In this document: in pieces, positions 3,583 through 37,773 of the stretch
Numbering within the stretch: position 1 is the first letter of the stretch
Layout: the number at the start of each line of letters is the position of its first letter
Virus record (IMG/VR): IMGVR_UViG_3300047557_002321
Span: 1 to 42,989 of that record
DNA from: a virus
Strand: one strand, 5' to 3'
DNA length: 42,989 bases
The notes under the pieces: generated by a model
The model's database searches: none
Seen by the model: only the letters and a program-made list of their open reading frames with translations
What the model was told of the DNA's origin: nothing
Program-made: the position numbers and the translations under genes

Positions 3583-4596
3583 ATGGTTCAACCTACTTTT
3601 GCCTTTCCGTGTGAATATGGCTTTACGGCACGACGAAGCGCTTATGGCGAGCGGATTAAAATTTCTACTACTAGCAGTGGCGCTACTCCCTCTTCTAATG
3701 AGATTGGCATTACTGCCTATGAAATTACGACCGTTCCCATTGGAAATGATGTTGCCGTAAGCCTTGATAATTCATTAAGAGCACTAAAGGGGTCGTATTT
3801 TTATAGCAGATTTTATTTTGATGACCAACAATATAAATATCGCATTGTAGACGACACGTGGGATTGGCAAGTAATTGGTCCCACTGCAAATATTTTTACT
3901 CTTGCCGTTGAGCGCGTTTATGAGCCCACTGTTGAATTTGCCATTGACTATGGGCAGTCTCAGGCGCAGCAGGTGTCAGCTCATCTGTTCAGGCTTGCCA
4001 CGACTTCAGGAACCGCCATTGCCTCTGGTAACGTCCGTTCGATGAAGCAAGTGGATGTAACGACAAAACCAATGTCGAAAGCATCTGCTATTGGCCTCAA
4101 CAATACGCTTACCACTCTTAGTGGCTCCTCCTTTTATTCGCAAATATATCTCGATCAGTCTCCTGTTCTATACAGACTGCAGCCTTATGAATGGAAGTGG
4201 AGCCCAGAGGGAGAAGATGCCTATGTGTGTACGTTTACCATGGCCGAAACAATGGCCAACACCACAGATATTCCATGTGTGGACACTTTAAGCTTGGAGC
4301 GCAGGTCAAGAGTAAAGAATGTGCAGTTTGGAGATGGCTATGAACAGAACTCTCCCGATGGTATCAATAGCCAAGATTATTTCTACGCCATTGAAACTCT
4401 GCCTTTATCAGATGCTCAAGCCGTTGCGATTGAAAGCGGGCTAACAGCTCTTCAAGGGAATACATTTTTTGCGAAATTCAAGAACGATACGCAAGTATAC
4501 AAATATCGCCTTGATGGAAATAACTGGACGTGGCAATCCCAAGGTAAGGATGCTAATGTTTTCTCGTTCAGAGTGAAACGAGCATACGACCTATGA
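3583..4596 (+). CDS. Lambda gpM-like minor tail protein with three tandem domains
   Basis: The 337 residues fall into three similar units of about 112 residues each, roughly the full length of a single lambda gpM. Each unit ends with an aromatic strand pair: YKYRIVDDTWDWQ, LYRLQPYEWKWS and YKYRLDGNNWTWQ. Only the third unit (from about residue 225) keeps the clear gpM signature KNVQFGDGYEQNSP. gpM is a tail-tip component between the tape measure and gpL. The gene starts 2 bases after the tape-measure stop and overlaps the next gene by 4 bases. The family call follows from the third unit and gene order; the triplication is read directly from the translation. Confidence 0.8.
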   Translation: MVQPTFAFPCEYGFTARRSAYGERIKISTTSSGATPSSNEIGITAYEITTVPIGNDVAVSLDNSLRALKGSYFYSRFYFDDQQYKYRIVDDTWDWQVIGPTANIFTLAVERVYEPTVEFAIDYGQSQAQQVSAHLFRLATTSGTAIASGNVRSMKQVDVTTKPMSKASAIGLNNTLTTLSGSSFYSQIYLDQSPVLYRLQPYEWKWSPEGEDAYVCTFTMAETMANTTDIPCVDTLSLERRSRVKNVQFGDGYEQNSPDGINSQDYFYAIETLPLSDAQAVAIESGLTALQGNTFFAKFKNDTQVYKYRLDGNNWTWQSQGKDANVFSFRVKRAYDL

Positions 4597-31036: not shown

Positions 31037-34000
31037 GTGCAGAGCCAAGAAATGGCTGCCACAATGGGGAGCGCTGTTCGACCGTGCTGCGTGGCATTCT
31101 CGATTCTTGATCACCTCGACGCCTTGGAGCCCAGCAACGAACCTGGGAAATACCGTTGCCCAGCATGTGGTGGCAATGATTTCACCGTGAACAAAGACAA
31201 CGGAGCGTTCAATTGCTGGCACGATACCAGTCCTGCGCATCGCGCCGAAATTCGTGATGCCATTGCTCCCCTTACTCGCTGGGAAAAACCACCACGAGAT
31301 CCAGGCTCCTACGTGTTTGGCTACAAAAATGCCAATGGGAAAGAAGTGGTAGTAGTGCATCGTGATGATGCCAGTGGTAGTAAAAAGATCTGGCAAGAAT
31401 TTCCCACTATTGATAAAACTTCCAACGGCTATAAAACTCAGCTTCAGGAAGTAAAGGCTGGTGTGTTGCCCTATAAATACGAGGAAGCGATTAAAACCAG
31501 CAAGGAAACTGGTTTACCTATCTTCGTCGTAGAAGGAGAGCTTGCCTGCGAGCAATTATGGGCTATTGGCATTCCTTCCATTACATTTCTTGGCGGCAGC
31601 AAACAGTATCGAACCAATGGTGATTATTCCCATCTTCTGAAGAACGAAAAGCTTGTTCTTTGCCCTGACCGTGATGAACAGGGCGTTGCCTTCATGGCAG
31701 AAGTGGCGGCAGATAATCCTGGCGCACAATGGCTTTATGCTGATCCGCTTTCCTGGGAATGGGACAATCTGCCATCAGGCAATGGTTATGACGTTGGAGA
31801 CTATATCAGCGATGGAGCGGAGAAAGATGATTTGCTTTCTTCCATTGTTTCCAAAAGCCGCCACAAGAATAATGATGGCAAGCCGTCCTACGAAGAAATC
31901 ATTTCAACTGTCGAAAATTTTGTTGGCCTGTACGCTAATGAAGCTCGTATTGGCTATGAAACTTCTCATTGGCTAGAGCAACGTAGCGTGAAGATGAGCC
32001 AGCAAAATATTGACAAGATTATTGAAGAAGCGCGAGCAAGGGTATATGGAAAAGAAGAAATTGAAAGCATTGACGCTCTTGCCATTGCCAACTCTGATAA
32101 GGCTCGTGATTGGTTAATTGCTGGAATTATTCCCTTGGGAAGCGTTACGTTACTTGCTGCAGCAGGCGGCACTGGTAAAGCCCAGGCTTTGTGGTCCAAG
32201 GTGCTAACGCCTACTGGCTGGAAGCTCATGGGTGACATCTGCGTGGGCGATGAAGTCATTGCGGGCGACGGCTCCGTTACAAAGGTGATTGACGTCTTCC
32301 CGCAAGGTAAGAAGCCCATTTTCAAGGTGCAAATGAGCGACGGCGCCACGACGCATTGTTGCGATGAACACCTCTGGCTTACCAAGACTCAGCGGGATCG
32401 TGATCGCGACAGGGATTGGAGCGTGCGGCCTCTTAAGGAGATCCGCGAGACTCTTCATTTGCATAAGTCGAACGGGCGCAAGGATCGCAATCACTCCATT
32501 CCCATGGTGGGCCCAGTTCAATTCAAGGAGCGTGATTTACCAATTGATCCTTATGTGCTTGGCGTTCTTCTTGGGGATGGCTGCATGTCGTCTGGCAATC
32601 TTGATATCACTGTTTCAGACGATGAAATCACCGATAGTTTCTGGGCTCGACTAGAGGAAAAGCATTCCTTGGCTCTTAAAGAAGATCGTGGTGGCTGCAA
32701 GAGCTATACGATTGCCGAGAATGGCTCGCGCAATGGAATCAGGAATGCACTAAAGGGGCTTGGTTTGTGGGGTTGTCGTTCTTGGGAAAAGTTTGTGCCT
32801 GATCAGTATTTGTATTCTTCTGTTCAGCAACGTCTTGATTTACTTCATGGCTTGATGGATACAGACGGAACTACTGGCGGCACTTCTACCACCTTTGATA
32901 GTTCCTCAAGGGATTTGCGGGATGCCGTGGCGACTATCGTTATGTCGTTGGGCGGCAAGGTGACATGCAGTGAACGGCAGCCTTGGTTCAATTACAAAGG
33001 CGAGAAGAAACAGGGTCGCATCAGTTACCGCGCTTTTATCTCCATGCCCCCTGGATTCAAGAGCTTCAGCATTGAAGCAAAGGCTTCAAAAGAAATCGAG
33101 CGCACCAAGTATGTGCCTGCACGACTAATTGATTCTGTCGAATACATTGGAGACGACGAAGCCCAGTGCATCATGGTGGATCATCCTTCTCACACTTATG
33201 TGACGGATGATTTTATCGTTACCCATAACACCACTCTTGTCTACAACTGGGCATTGCACGTTGCTCTTGGTACGCCATGGAGTGGAAGGCGCTGCATGAA
33301 AGGCCGTTGCTTGCTGATCAGCGCCGACGAGCCTCTCACTGATACGGCTGAGAAACTTTCAGTGATTGGCTATCAAGATGCTGGACTGGAGCCGGGTGAT
33401 ATTAGTTTCTGGGAGACTTGGCGCTTTGCCCATATGAAGCAGCTTGAGGATTACATCAGGAAGGAACGTCCTTCTCTGGTGATGATTGACAGCCTGACTG
33501 CTTGTCTTGCTGGTATGAACGTGGACCTAGCGAAGAGCAGTGCTGGTGATGCCATTTATGGCCTTCGGGACATGGCTAATACTTACCGCTGCTCCATTGT
33601 GATTCTTCACCATCTCAACAAAAGTGGAGGACTTCGTGATTCCACCAGCTTTGTTGACAACGTAAGTGAAGTGGTGAAGCTCACTCGTTCCGAAAGCTTC
33701 GATCCAAATGAATTCACCTTGGAGTGGCTGAAGAGCAGGAGTGGTCTTGCTGGCAAGCACGTTCTGAAGCGCGATAGCTTGAACTATGGCTGGCATTATG
33801 AAGGACCGCTTGGTGGCTCTCTTGAGGAGCTTACTCGCGTGGTGAATGCCGTGGAGATGCGTAAAGCAGAACGTTTTAGCAAGCATCAAGTGTCGGCTCT
33901 TACTGGCTCGTTTGAGGTTGGTTCTACTGGCAAAATGCTGGAAATTGCGCGTCGTCAAGGTCTTATCACTTCATCGTTTCAGGATGGTCTCAATGGAGAA

Positions 34001-34156
34001 AAAGAGCGTCTTTATCATTCATGGGAATGGCAAGAGCCGGATCTTACTTTCCCTGCCCCTGACTCTGCCCTCGACTCTGCCCTCGACTCTGCCCCTGAAA
34101 TCGTTGCCGACGAGCCTGATGATACCGAAGAAGCCAATTACGACGATCTTTTCTAA
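31037..34156 (+). CDS. TOPRIM primase-RecA-like helicase, interrupted by an intein
   Basis: The 1039-codon frame gives a 689-residue protein after removal of a 350-residue intein. Zinc finger C41/C44/C60/H62, TOPRIM with VVEGE (164-168) and CPDRDEQG (D211, D213), then a RepA/RecA-like ATPase: Walker A AAGGTGK (375-381) completed by TT after the intein, and Walker B LVMIDSL near 815-821. It primes and unwinds at the phage fork. The tail is acidic with three DSA(L/P) units and ends YDDLF. The start is uncertain: GTG 31037 has GAGG one base away, and ATG 31052 or 31064 are alternatives. A terminator follows at 34202-34228. Confidence 0.9.
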   Translation: MQSQEMAATMGSAVRPCCVAFSILDHLDALEPSNEPGKYRCPACGGNDFTVNKDNGAFNCWHDTSPAHRAEIRDAIAPLTRWEKPPRDPGSYVFGYKNANGKEVVVVHRDDASGSKKIWQEFPTIDKTSNGYKTQLQEVKAGVLPYKYEEAIKTSKETGLPIFVVEGELACEQLWAIGIPSITFLGGSKQYRTNGDYSHLLKNEKLVLCPDRDEQGVAFMAEVAADNPGAQWLYADPLSWEWDNLPSGNGYDVGDYISDGAEKDDLLSSIVSKSRHKNNDGKPSYEEIISTVENFVGLYANEARIGYETSHWLEQRSVKMSQQNIDKIIEEARARVYGKEEIESIDALAIANSDKARDWLIAGIIPLGSVTLLAAAGGTGKAQALWSKVLTPTGWKLMGDICVGDEVIAGDGSVTKVIDVFPQGKKPIFKVQMSDGATTHCCDEHLWLTKTQRDRDRDRDWSVRPLKEIRETLHLHKSNGRKDRNHSIPMVGPVQFKERDLPIDPYVLGVLLGDGCMSSGNLDITVSDDEITDSFWARLEEKHSLALKEDRGGCKSYTIAENGSRNGIRNALKGLGLWGCRSWEKFVPDQYLYSSVQQRLDLLHGLMDTDGTTGGTSTTFDSSSRDLRDAVATIVMSLGGKVTCSERQPWFNYKGEKKQGRISYRAFISMPPGFKSFSIEAKASKEIERTKYVPARLIDSVEYIGDDEAQCIMVDHPSHTYVTDDFIVTHNTTLVYNWALHVALGTPWSGRRCMKGRCLLISADEPLTDTAEKLSVIGYQDAGLEPGDISFWETWRFAHMKQLEDYIRKERPSLVMIDSLTACLAGMNVDLAKSSAGDAIYGLRDMANTYRCSIVILHHLNKSGGLRDSTSFVDNVSEVVKLTRSESFDPNEFTLEWLKSRSGLAGKHVLKRDSLNYGWHYEGPLGGSLEELTRVVNAVEMRKAERFSKHQVSALTGSFEVGSTGKMLEIARRQGLITSSFQDGLNGEKERLYHSWEWQEPDLTFPAPDSALDSALDSAPEIVADEPDDTEEANYDDLF
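32180..33229 (+). other. Intein with LAGLIDADG homing endonuclease, class 3 type
   Basis: Residues 382-731 of the frame split the Walker A motif exactly between Lys381 and Thr732. Intein residue 1 is Ala, not Cys/Ser. Block A is KVLTPTGWKLMGDI and the region continues CVGDEVIAGDG. Block B has CDEHLW (intein Trp66). Block F is AQCIMVD (intein Cys330). Block G is IVTHN with Thr348 before His349-Asn350, followed by +1 Thr. Trp in block B, Cys in block F, Thr in block G and no position-1 nucleophile are the marks of class 3 inteins. LAGLIDADG motifs: YVLGVLLGDGCM (about 504-515) and LLHGLMDTDGT (about 602-612). Confidence 0.92.
34061..34096 (+). repeat. Three 12-base tandem repeats in the primase-helicase tail
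   Basis: GACTCTGCCCTC occurs at 34061-34072 and 34073-34084, and a third unit with two changes (GACTCTGCCCCT) at 34085-34096. They encode DSAL-DSAL-DSAP in the acidic linker before the DDLF end. Confidence 0.9.
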
Positions 34157-34927: not shown

Positions 34928-35096
34928 GGAAATAGTAGCAGAATAAGCAATGTGCCAATTCAAAACTGTCACAGTGAAATTTGACAGGGGCTTTACAATC
35001 GTCCAGTAGTTGCCTGGCAGCATCTACGGGCCTGGCGCAACGTCCACAAATCTACGCTGCGGCCCTCTCGACGAGAGGGTTCTATGGAGGCGAAAA

Positions 35097-35143
35097 GTTA
35101 TTGCGAATCCTGATAAACATCGTTTATTGGCTTTTTCAATAAC
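35097..35143. repeat. Hairpin H1 of the triple hairpin element
   Basis: GTTATTG (35097-35103) pairs with CAATAAC (35137-35143). Inside, ATAAAC (35113-35118) pairs with GTTTAT (35122-35127) around ATC, extendable with G-T pairs. The 3' inner strand reads GGCTTTTTCAA before the closing arm, as in H2 and H3. Confidence 0.65.
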
Positions 35144-35149
35144 CTTCGC

Positions 35150-35204
35150 GAAAATGCCGACGCGCAGGGCGAGCCCCAAGCGAGCCTTATCCAACGGCAT
35201 TTTC
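35150..35204. repeat. Hairpin H2 of the triple hairpin element
   Basis: GAAAATGCCG (35150-35159) pairs perfectly over 10 bases with CGGCATTTTC (35195-35204). The inner region begins ACGCGCAG, can form GGG/CCC, and ends GCCTTATCCAA. Inner start and end are similar to H3 (ACGAGCAG ... GCTTTATTCAA). Confidence 0.8.
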
Positions 35205-35247
35205 TTTAAGACTTCCTCTCGATTATTTCTTCTATAAAGCGTCTTTC

Positions 35248-35301
35248 GGAAATGGCCTACGAGCAGCGCCCCTTTAGGGGCTTTATTCAAAGGCCATTTC
35301 C
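35248..35301. repeat. Hairpin H3 of the triple hairpin element
   Basis: GGAAATGGCCT (35248-35258) pairs perfectly over 11 bases with AGGCCATTTCC (35291-35301). An inner stem GCCCC/GGGGC (35268-35272 and 35277-35281) has a TTTA loop. The internal loop is symmetric, nine bases on each side. Confidence 0.85.
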
Positions 35302-35347
35302 TTCCCAGTAATCACTATTTAAACTACAAGGGCGAATTCAAAGGCTT

Positions 35348-35584
35348 ATGCCTCGTCCTCCTCAATCTCCTGATAAGCTGCCTGTCATTGACTATCAGGG
35401 AGTTACCATCGAGCCCATTCAGCATTACGGCTTCTGCATTCCTGATAAAGGCCCTATCCCTAAGCCTCGCGTGATGTATGGTGCTCGTAATCCTGAAGAT
35501 GGTGAACGTCACTGGCGCTCAAGCTACGACGAAATCATCTCTTTGATTAATCGTGGTTTTGTAGTTGCTAGCGGTGAATCCTGA
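35348..35584 (+). CDS. Hypothetical protein
   Basis: The 78-residue protein begins MPRPPQSPDKLPVIDYQGV and contains GFCIPDKGPIPKPRVMYGA and a WRSSYDEIISLINRG helix. AAGG lies close before the ATG. It is the first gene to the right of the hairpin element and shares its TGA with the next start (TGATGA). No family recognised. Confidence 0.65.
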   Translation: MPRPPQSPDKLPVIDYQGVTIEPIQHYGFCIPDKGPIPKPRVMYGARNPEDGERHWRSSYDEIISLINRGFVVASGES

Positions 35585-37005: not shown

Positions 37006-37773
37006 ATGGCAGAAGAAAAGAAAAAGCGCAATATTCCACCTCCGAAGCAGCGTCGCGTGCCATTTCAGAGCGATGAGGCCCTGGTGGAACATTGCGTGAA
37101 GATTCTAGTGAAAAGTGGAATGACGCCAGAACAGATTGATATCCTCAGGAATAAAAATTATGATATGTTCTCTAAAGAGGTTGTTGGACAGCGTAGGTAC
37201 GCTACAAGCATGCTTCTCGCAGCCAATTTAAGCAACGAGCAAATTGCAAAAGTATTCAAGCTAAGTAAAGAGACAGTTGCTTCTGATAGGGAACATCTTC
37301 GCAAGGTTTACACTGAAAGTATTCTTCAGAATGCAGACCACTGGCGAGCAAAGCTTCTCAAGGAGCAAGATGAAATTAAAAATAAAGCAATGAAAAGCTT
37401 CGAGGCTAGCAAGCAAAAGATTATTCGCAAAATTCAAGAACGCAATGGAGACGAAATTATCACCACGGAAGTATATGAAACTGCTGGCGAATCAAGCTTC
37501 TTAAGTGTTGCAAAAGGCTGCTTAGAACAGCAAGCAAAAATCCTCGGCCTCTTTGACAAGAAGCCTGAAGTAAAAGACGACGATAAAAGTTATAAAAAAT
37601 TCCTCAATAACTTATCAAGCGAAGTTAAAAAAATCCGCGAAGCTGAAAAGAACGCTGGTGATCGTGCCTCTGCCATTGACGCAGAAGCCACTTTTGACGA
37701 TGAAGGAAATCTTGATGGAGATAGCCGTCCTATGTTGCCTGCCAATCCTGAAGACAATCAGGACGATGCTTGA
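37006..37773 (+). CDS. HTH protein resembling a terminase small subunit
   Basis: The 255-residue protein has a basic start (MAEEKKKRNIPPPKQRRVPF), a helix-turn-helix at about 71-97 (LSNEQIAKVFKLSKETVASD), a long central helix, then SFLSVAKGCLEQQAKILGL near 165-185. The last is the pattern of small terminase proteins before the oligomer interface. The end is acidic. No large terminase lies next to it, so a general DNA-binding role is the alternative. Confidence 0.45.
   Translation: MAEEKKKRNIPPPKQRRVPFQSDEALVEHCVKILVKSGMTPEQIDILRNKNYDMFSKEVVGQRRYATSMLLAANLSNEQIAKVFKLSKETVASDREHLRKVYTESILQNADHWRAKLLKEQDEIKNKAMKSFEASKQKIIRKIQERNGDEIITTEVYETAGESSFLSVAKGCLEQQAKILGLFDKKPEVKDDDKSYKKFLNNLSSEVKKIREAEKNAGDRASAIDAEATFDDEGNLDGDSRPMLPANPEDNQDDA

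Follow-up and report, generated by a model that had tools for sequence, protein, structure and literature searches.

What are the three large hairpins that follow one another in a gene-free stretch of an environmental virus genome, and would they act as DNA, as RNA or as binding sites for a protein? The window, meaning the whole stretch of DNA analysed here, is an entire IMG/VR virus record of 42,989 bases. The hairpin region is flanked by two small leftward genes and by a rightward operon that starts at position 35348. The closest cultured relative found for the window is Synechococcus phage S-CBS4, whose RecA-family ATPase is 56% identical to that of the window and whose homologue of the 78-aa gene, the first gene of the operon, is 52% identical. 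Both phages have the same gene order, with the RecA-family ATPase, the 78-aa gene homologue, a Sak-type annealing protein and a gene labelled RNase E. The virus is an uncultured S-CBS4-like cyanophage and the hairpin region is the predicted 5' leader of its long rightward operon. The features of this leader are collected in Table 1.

Table 1. Features of the leader and first gene of the rightward operon, with positions in the window.
Feature	Positions	Strand	Evidence
Palindrome TGTGCCA-N9-TGTCACA, candidate repressor operator upstream of the leader promoter	34951-34973		Alignment; function inferred
Promoter-like region, -10 TACAAT at 34994-34999	34981-34999	+	TACAAT or TTTACCCT conserved here in 16 aligned leaders
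Element E1 (ACGGGCCTGG...CTGCGGCCCT), stem GGGCC/GGCCC	35026-35066	+	About 40 loci conserve it as ACGCGCCTGGGG...CCCTGCGGCGCT
Candidate short upstream ORF (MEAKSYCES)	35084-35113	+	ATGG present in almost every leader, without conservation of the peptide
Stem-loop SL1, the extended H1 (GCGAA..TTCGC closing stem), adjoining H2	35090-35149	+	Folding; H1-type hairpin also in relatives and S-CBS4
Hairpin H2 (SL2), member of the conserved family, class A	35150-35204	+	In R1 seed; R2 58.5 bits; covariation
Hairpin H3, same family as H2, Watson-Crick tip	35248-35301	+	Match of model R1 without H3 in its seed, E = 5e-6
78-aa gene, first of the operon, after the leader	35348-35581	+	117 tblastn matches in fetched viral loci

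Three observations on other parts of these genomes were made along the way. The primase/RecA-family ATPase gene of the window (31037-34156) carries about 1,060 extra bases (approximately residues 375-735) with LAGLIDADG signatures, missing from relative L003. This stretch is very probably an intein, and the several PHROG "terminase" matches of the gene, which fall inside it, are probably misleading. The gene at 37006-37773 weakly resembles PHROG 645 (E = 1e-11), which bears the possibly mistaken label "RNase E"; its S-CBS4 counterpart also lies 3' of the same leader. Finally, the minus strand of S-CBS4 (NC_016766) contains at about 4440-4520 a tRNA-like sequence (complement of GCCCTTGTAGCTCAGTGGTAGAGCAG...), seemingly unannotated in the record.

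The arms described in the initial annotation are present in the sequence. H1 is closed by 7 bp (GTTATTG at 35097-35103 with CAATAAC at 35137-35143), H2 by 10 bp (GAAAATGCCG at 35150-35159 with CGGCATTTTC at 35195-35204) and H3 by 11 bp (GGAAATGGCCT at 35248-35258 with AGGCCATTTCC at 35291-35301). The interior of H3 is also as it was described: its internal loop is nine-by-nine (ACGAGCAGC / TTTATTCAA) and its tip reads GCCCC-TTTA-GGGGC. All three hairpins exceed chance, with RNA folding z-scores on the plus strand of -5.3 for H1, -3.9 for H2 and -5.9 for H3, and with no equally stable sequence among 200 shuffles of each. The entire leader (35003-35350) has a folding z-score of -4.4. A coding role for the two basic reading frames of this region, which would have spoken against structure, is ruled out by their poor conservation in the fetched loci, where they give 8 and 3 weak matches, gapped or interrupted by stops, compared to 117 for the 78-aa gene.

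In the minimum free energy fold of the leader, H1 extends beyond its 7-bp arms, as GCGAA (35090-35094) pairs with TTCGC (35145-35149). The closing stem of this extended hairpin, SL1, ends at 35149 and H2 starts at 35150, so that not a single unpaired base separates them. SL1 and SL2 abut both in the window and in relative L092, and for each of the 33 leaders checked one can draw a stem that ends at SL2; statistically this comparative evidence for SL1 is weak, a 5-bp stem being easily found within 75 bases. The grouping of all three hairpins as copies of one motif does not survive for H1, which is missed by models built from H2-type hairpins that detect both H2 and H3. H3 itself reads as a duplicated SL2.

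The 78-aa gene led to a relative, L003, whose hairpin at the corresponding position shares the internal loop but not the arms. Hairpins of further relatives were collected by descriptor search. A covariance model, R1, seeded with five copies that included H2 and excluded H3, matched H3 (E = 5e-6) and about 25 further copies. In unrelated phage loci its best E-value was 0.48, except for a few weak hits, which fell in loci retrieved with a pattern of the same motif. An alignment of 35 copies has standard pairs in 97.5% of cells, with changes on both sides in 8 of 8 outer pairs. Its covariation score is 0.58, compared to 0.17 when shuffled and at most 0.13 in slid controls; the copy alignments are fitted to the model and hence biased towards it, and both kinds of control are nonetheless far lower. 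Extending the search by means of the 78-aa family gave 80 loci, and a second model, R2, was run on 77 of them and on the window. It found 68 copies, partly overlapping those used in building it; 67 of the 68 lie 5' of the 78-aa gene and share its strand. The 55 distinct copies of this wider set are 93.7% paired, with a covariation score of 0.43 against 0.14 shuffled.

In this family the bases of the outer stem vary freely without loss of pairing, the internal loop (CGMGMR... / ...UUCA) is conserved and the tip is small. The 5' side of the loop reads (U)ACGMGCA and the 3' side reads UUAUUCA or GUUCA. Many copies have the tip GC-GA-GCC-CCCAA-GGC-GA-GC, in which the G-A/G-A step would be, from known RNA structure, a tandem sheared pair. 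The tip of H3 differs, being a plain GCCCC/GGGGC stem. A second class (CGAGAGGGUAG...CGUCGUUC) is found in other leaders, and four phages (L011, L012, L017 and L020) as well as S-CBS4 have hairpins at the same leader position with yet another loop.

The initial annotation had suggested a structured RNA family whose arms change under selection for pairing, and had named a covariance-model search as the way to check it. That search was run and passed, and the relatives keep the pairing with strong compensatory change. From this pattern of substitutions, the leader almost certainly contains a structured RNA, and the hairpins very probably form a new family of viral control RNA.

As for the surroundings of the hairpins, the alignment of 16 leaders has the order palindrome (in many), -10-like box, E1, purine-rich stretch with ATGG, SL1 and one or more family hairpins. 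The palindrome is better kept in relatives, as TGTGCCA-N10-TGGCACA in many of the 16 leaders, and is possibly the operator of some repressor. The -35 of the window is uncertain, with a TTGACA only 7 bases 5' of the -10, and several relatives carry TTGACT at normal spacing. The stem of E1 is compensated, with GGGCC/GGCCC in the window and GCGCC/GGCGC in others. In a subgroup (L296 and L271) the hairpin begins a few bases past a sigma70-like TTGACT-N16-TATTGT and stops 20 nt before the start codon. The predicted RNA would therefore start with the hairpin itself, a layout that ties the motif to predicted RNA 5' ends.

Whole-contig searches reveal in about ten long relatives a second cluster of copies, locus B, at 11-16 kb from the leader locus (A) and facing it; these distances allow for circular permutation where needed. 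Locus B spans 0.5-1 kb without long ORFs, has in some relatives a TACAATAG-like box at its start, and holds 2-5 family copies, usually one of them reversed and with a T-rich tail. In the window, the corresponding site would fall past the end of the record. Some copies are nested. Inserted in the tip of the G003 hairpin (L239 3025-3165) are one full family hairpin and a second, small hairpin (GCCGCC/GGCGGC); the G004 homologue (L243 9270-9320) is plain. Another conserved block is present at the far end of locus B, composed of a GTGCGC...GCGCAC hairpin and AAAAAGTCGTT..GCGTCG..GGGGTGCCCCGCCCC..TACTGCTC (L239 3490-3700, L241 4880-5090, L240 2660-2870). The comparative evidence establishes that SL2-type hairpins are under selection for pairing, that bases of their internal loop are conserved, that they are located on the operon sense strand, 3' of a promoter-like site and 5' of the first gene, and that they recur at locus B, facing the operon.

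Searches for known counterparts gave little. Rfam 15, used with permissive E-values on the window and its relatives, returned chance-level matches only, far below gathering cut-offs. In 200 genomes of a picocyanobacterial order the covariance search, with strict filters and no positive control there, had no match. Nothing related turned up among cultured phages when the leader, locus B and the consensus hairpin served as nucleotide queries. A short GC-rich pattern searched in cellular genomes gave mostly chance matches, in actinomycetes and other GC-rich genomes; the sole cyanobacterial one among the matches listed resembled coding sequence, lacked the outer stem and was rejected. We found no description of these hairpins in the literature. 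Within phage leader RNAs this is a new RNA family, and its facing pair of loci and its nesting are unusual.

Among known systems, the closest in layout is the put RNA of phage HK022, about 70 nt with two bulged stem-loops near early promoters, which acts without a protein (PMC9378689). Here too a phage leader RNA lies near a promoter that would be early, and the two adjacent stem-loops, with bulges or internal loops, are SL1 and H2, which abut 3' of a -10-like site. Two sites per genome and terminators in the operon are further likenesses; here, some of the terminators are followed by promoter-like sites. Unlike put, the present leader has no known sequence likeness to it, is about 330 nt long with the extra element E1, belongs to phages of cyanobacteria, has up to five copies, some nested, and has one gene-free site that faces the other. 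The nut sites of lambda (boxA/boxB with N) are likewise leader hairpins in a phage operon, and many relatives have a boxA-like GCTCTTTAAC at the 3' arm. This sequence is absent from the window copies, the hairpins are far larger than boxB and no N-like gene was identified; identity with nut was rejected. In S-CBS4 the leader has the same gene order, with an H1-type hairpin and a variant hairpin 5' of the 78-aa gene homologue; that variant hairpin has a different internal loop and gives no match to the family model.

We tentatively favour, by analogy with HK022 put, a cis-acting leader RNA that would modify RNA polymerase. The leader carries in order E1, the abutting SL1 and SL2, and the duplicated SL2. 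While still nascent, these hairpins would act in cis on the host polymerase during elongation, either by themselves or through a phage or host factor, and the modified polymerase would read through the internal terminators of the operon. Contact would be made by the conserved internal loop, with the stems as a mere scaffold. This reading is favoured by the two abutting stem-loops near the promoter, together with the conserved loop, and by the density of intrinsic terminators between co-directional genes, with 18 in 111 kb 3' of the leader against 3 in 103 kb of the late module (about 5 times denser, counted per kb of interval and not per intergenic length). It is disfavoured by the lack of qualifying terminators in two intervals, that of G003 and the main S-CBS4 segment, and by the -10-like sequences that follow some terminators, which may thus separate independent units. 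Locus B also stands against it, since it holds several copies but no long co-directional operon, so that antitermination would have no use there.

The protein-binding array offered by the initial annotation becomes, moved to the RNA level, the main rival, and it is nearly as likely as the put-like leader, if also doubtful. The hairpins would be RNA operators for a trans-acting phage or host protein that controls translation or stability, and the predicted noncoding RNA of locus B, with its 2-5 copies, would sponge that protein. Conserved internal-loop bases inside a variable stem are typical of protein recognition, and some hairpins stop 20 nt before a start codon. Being gene-free, with a -10-like site to itself and multiple copies, part of them nested, locus B fits better here than with the put-like reading. 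CsrB RNA soaks up CsrA, and that system likewise combines a single hairpin motif in an mRNA leader with a multicopy gene-free locus; its GGA loop motif is missing from the family hairpins. Against this reading, part of the locus B copies are reversed and no candidate RNA-binding protein was identified; the 78-aa protein has a confident predicted structure with no recognisable match in the PDB. Simple shielding of phage mRNA against the host nucleases RNase E and RNase J, by the leader hairpins at the 5' end and by those of locus B at the 3' end, is unlikely. In some relatives the RNA would open directly with the hairpin, and the reversed B copies with T-rich tails sit where the operon transcript would end; a conserved internal loop is unnecessary for shielding, and the window hairpins are about 90-300 nt from the predicted start.

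A transcription attenuator, where a ribosome on the short leader ORF (ATGG at 35084) decides termination at downstream hairpins, is improbable. The ATGG, often with a purine-rich Shine-Dalgarno-like stretch, is present in nearly all leaders and overlaps the 5' arm of SL1. The leader peptides are not conserved, though, and no U run follows the leader hairpins, which excludes them as intrinsic terminators on tail sequence; in the leader the terminator scan gave a score only to the tip inside H3 and to a weak stem expected by chance, and none to the outer stems. Very improbable is an element acting as DNA, such as a replication origin, a site for packaging or recombination, or a mobile hairpin able to insert into other hairpins. 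The presence of copies at two loci, which at B have both orientations, and the G003 hairpin nested within a tip where G004 is plain would agree with it. Against it are the strand bias of 67 out of 68 in leaders, the tight link to promoters and to the 78-aa gene, and the G-U pairs in H1-type stems. The origin in particular, also suggested by the initial annotation, is made unlikely by most copies lying on the transcribed strand of 5' leaders and by a second set at an unrelated site. The mobile hairpin was rejected: nesting is compatible with it, and the variable arms, unlike those of transposed copies, and the strand bias contradict it.

To our knowledge, very little is known of transcription control in cyanophages beyond the T4-like and T7-like groups. 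The boldest version of the put-like reading is distinctly unlikely: a new, protein-independent class of phage RNA that would reprogram cyanobacterial RNA polymerase, built on a self-multiplying and self-nesting hairpin, whose facing pair would join a cis-acting leader to a stand-alone multi-hairpin RNA across an 11-16 kb operon. Whichever reading holds, a leader RNA in dozens of metagenomic phages, with a matching multicopy locus at the far end of the operon, is a defined handle that can be tested. Action on RNA polymerase would add one more natural example of put-type control, in hosts far removed from E. coli. Binding of a protein would point to a phage regulator not yet known.
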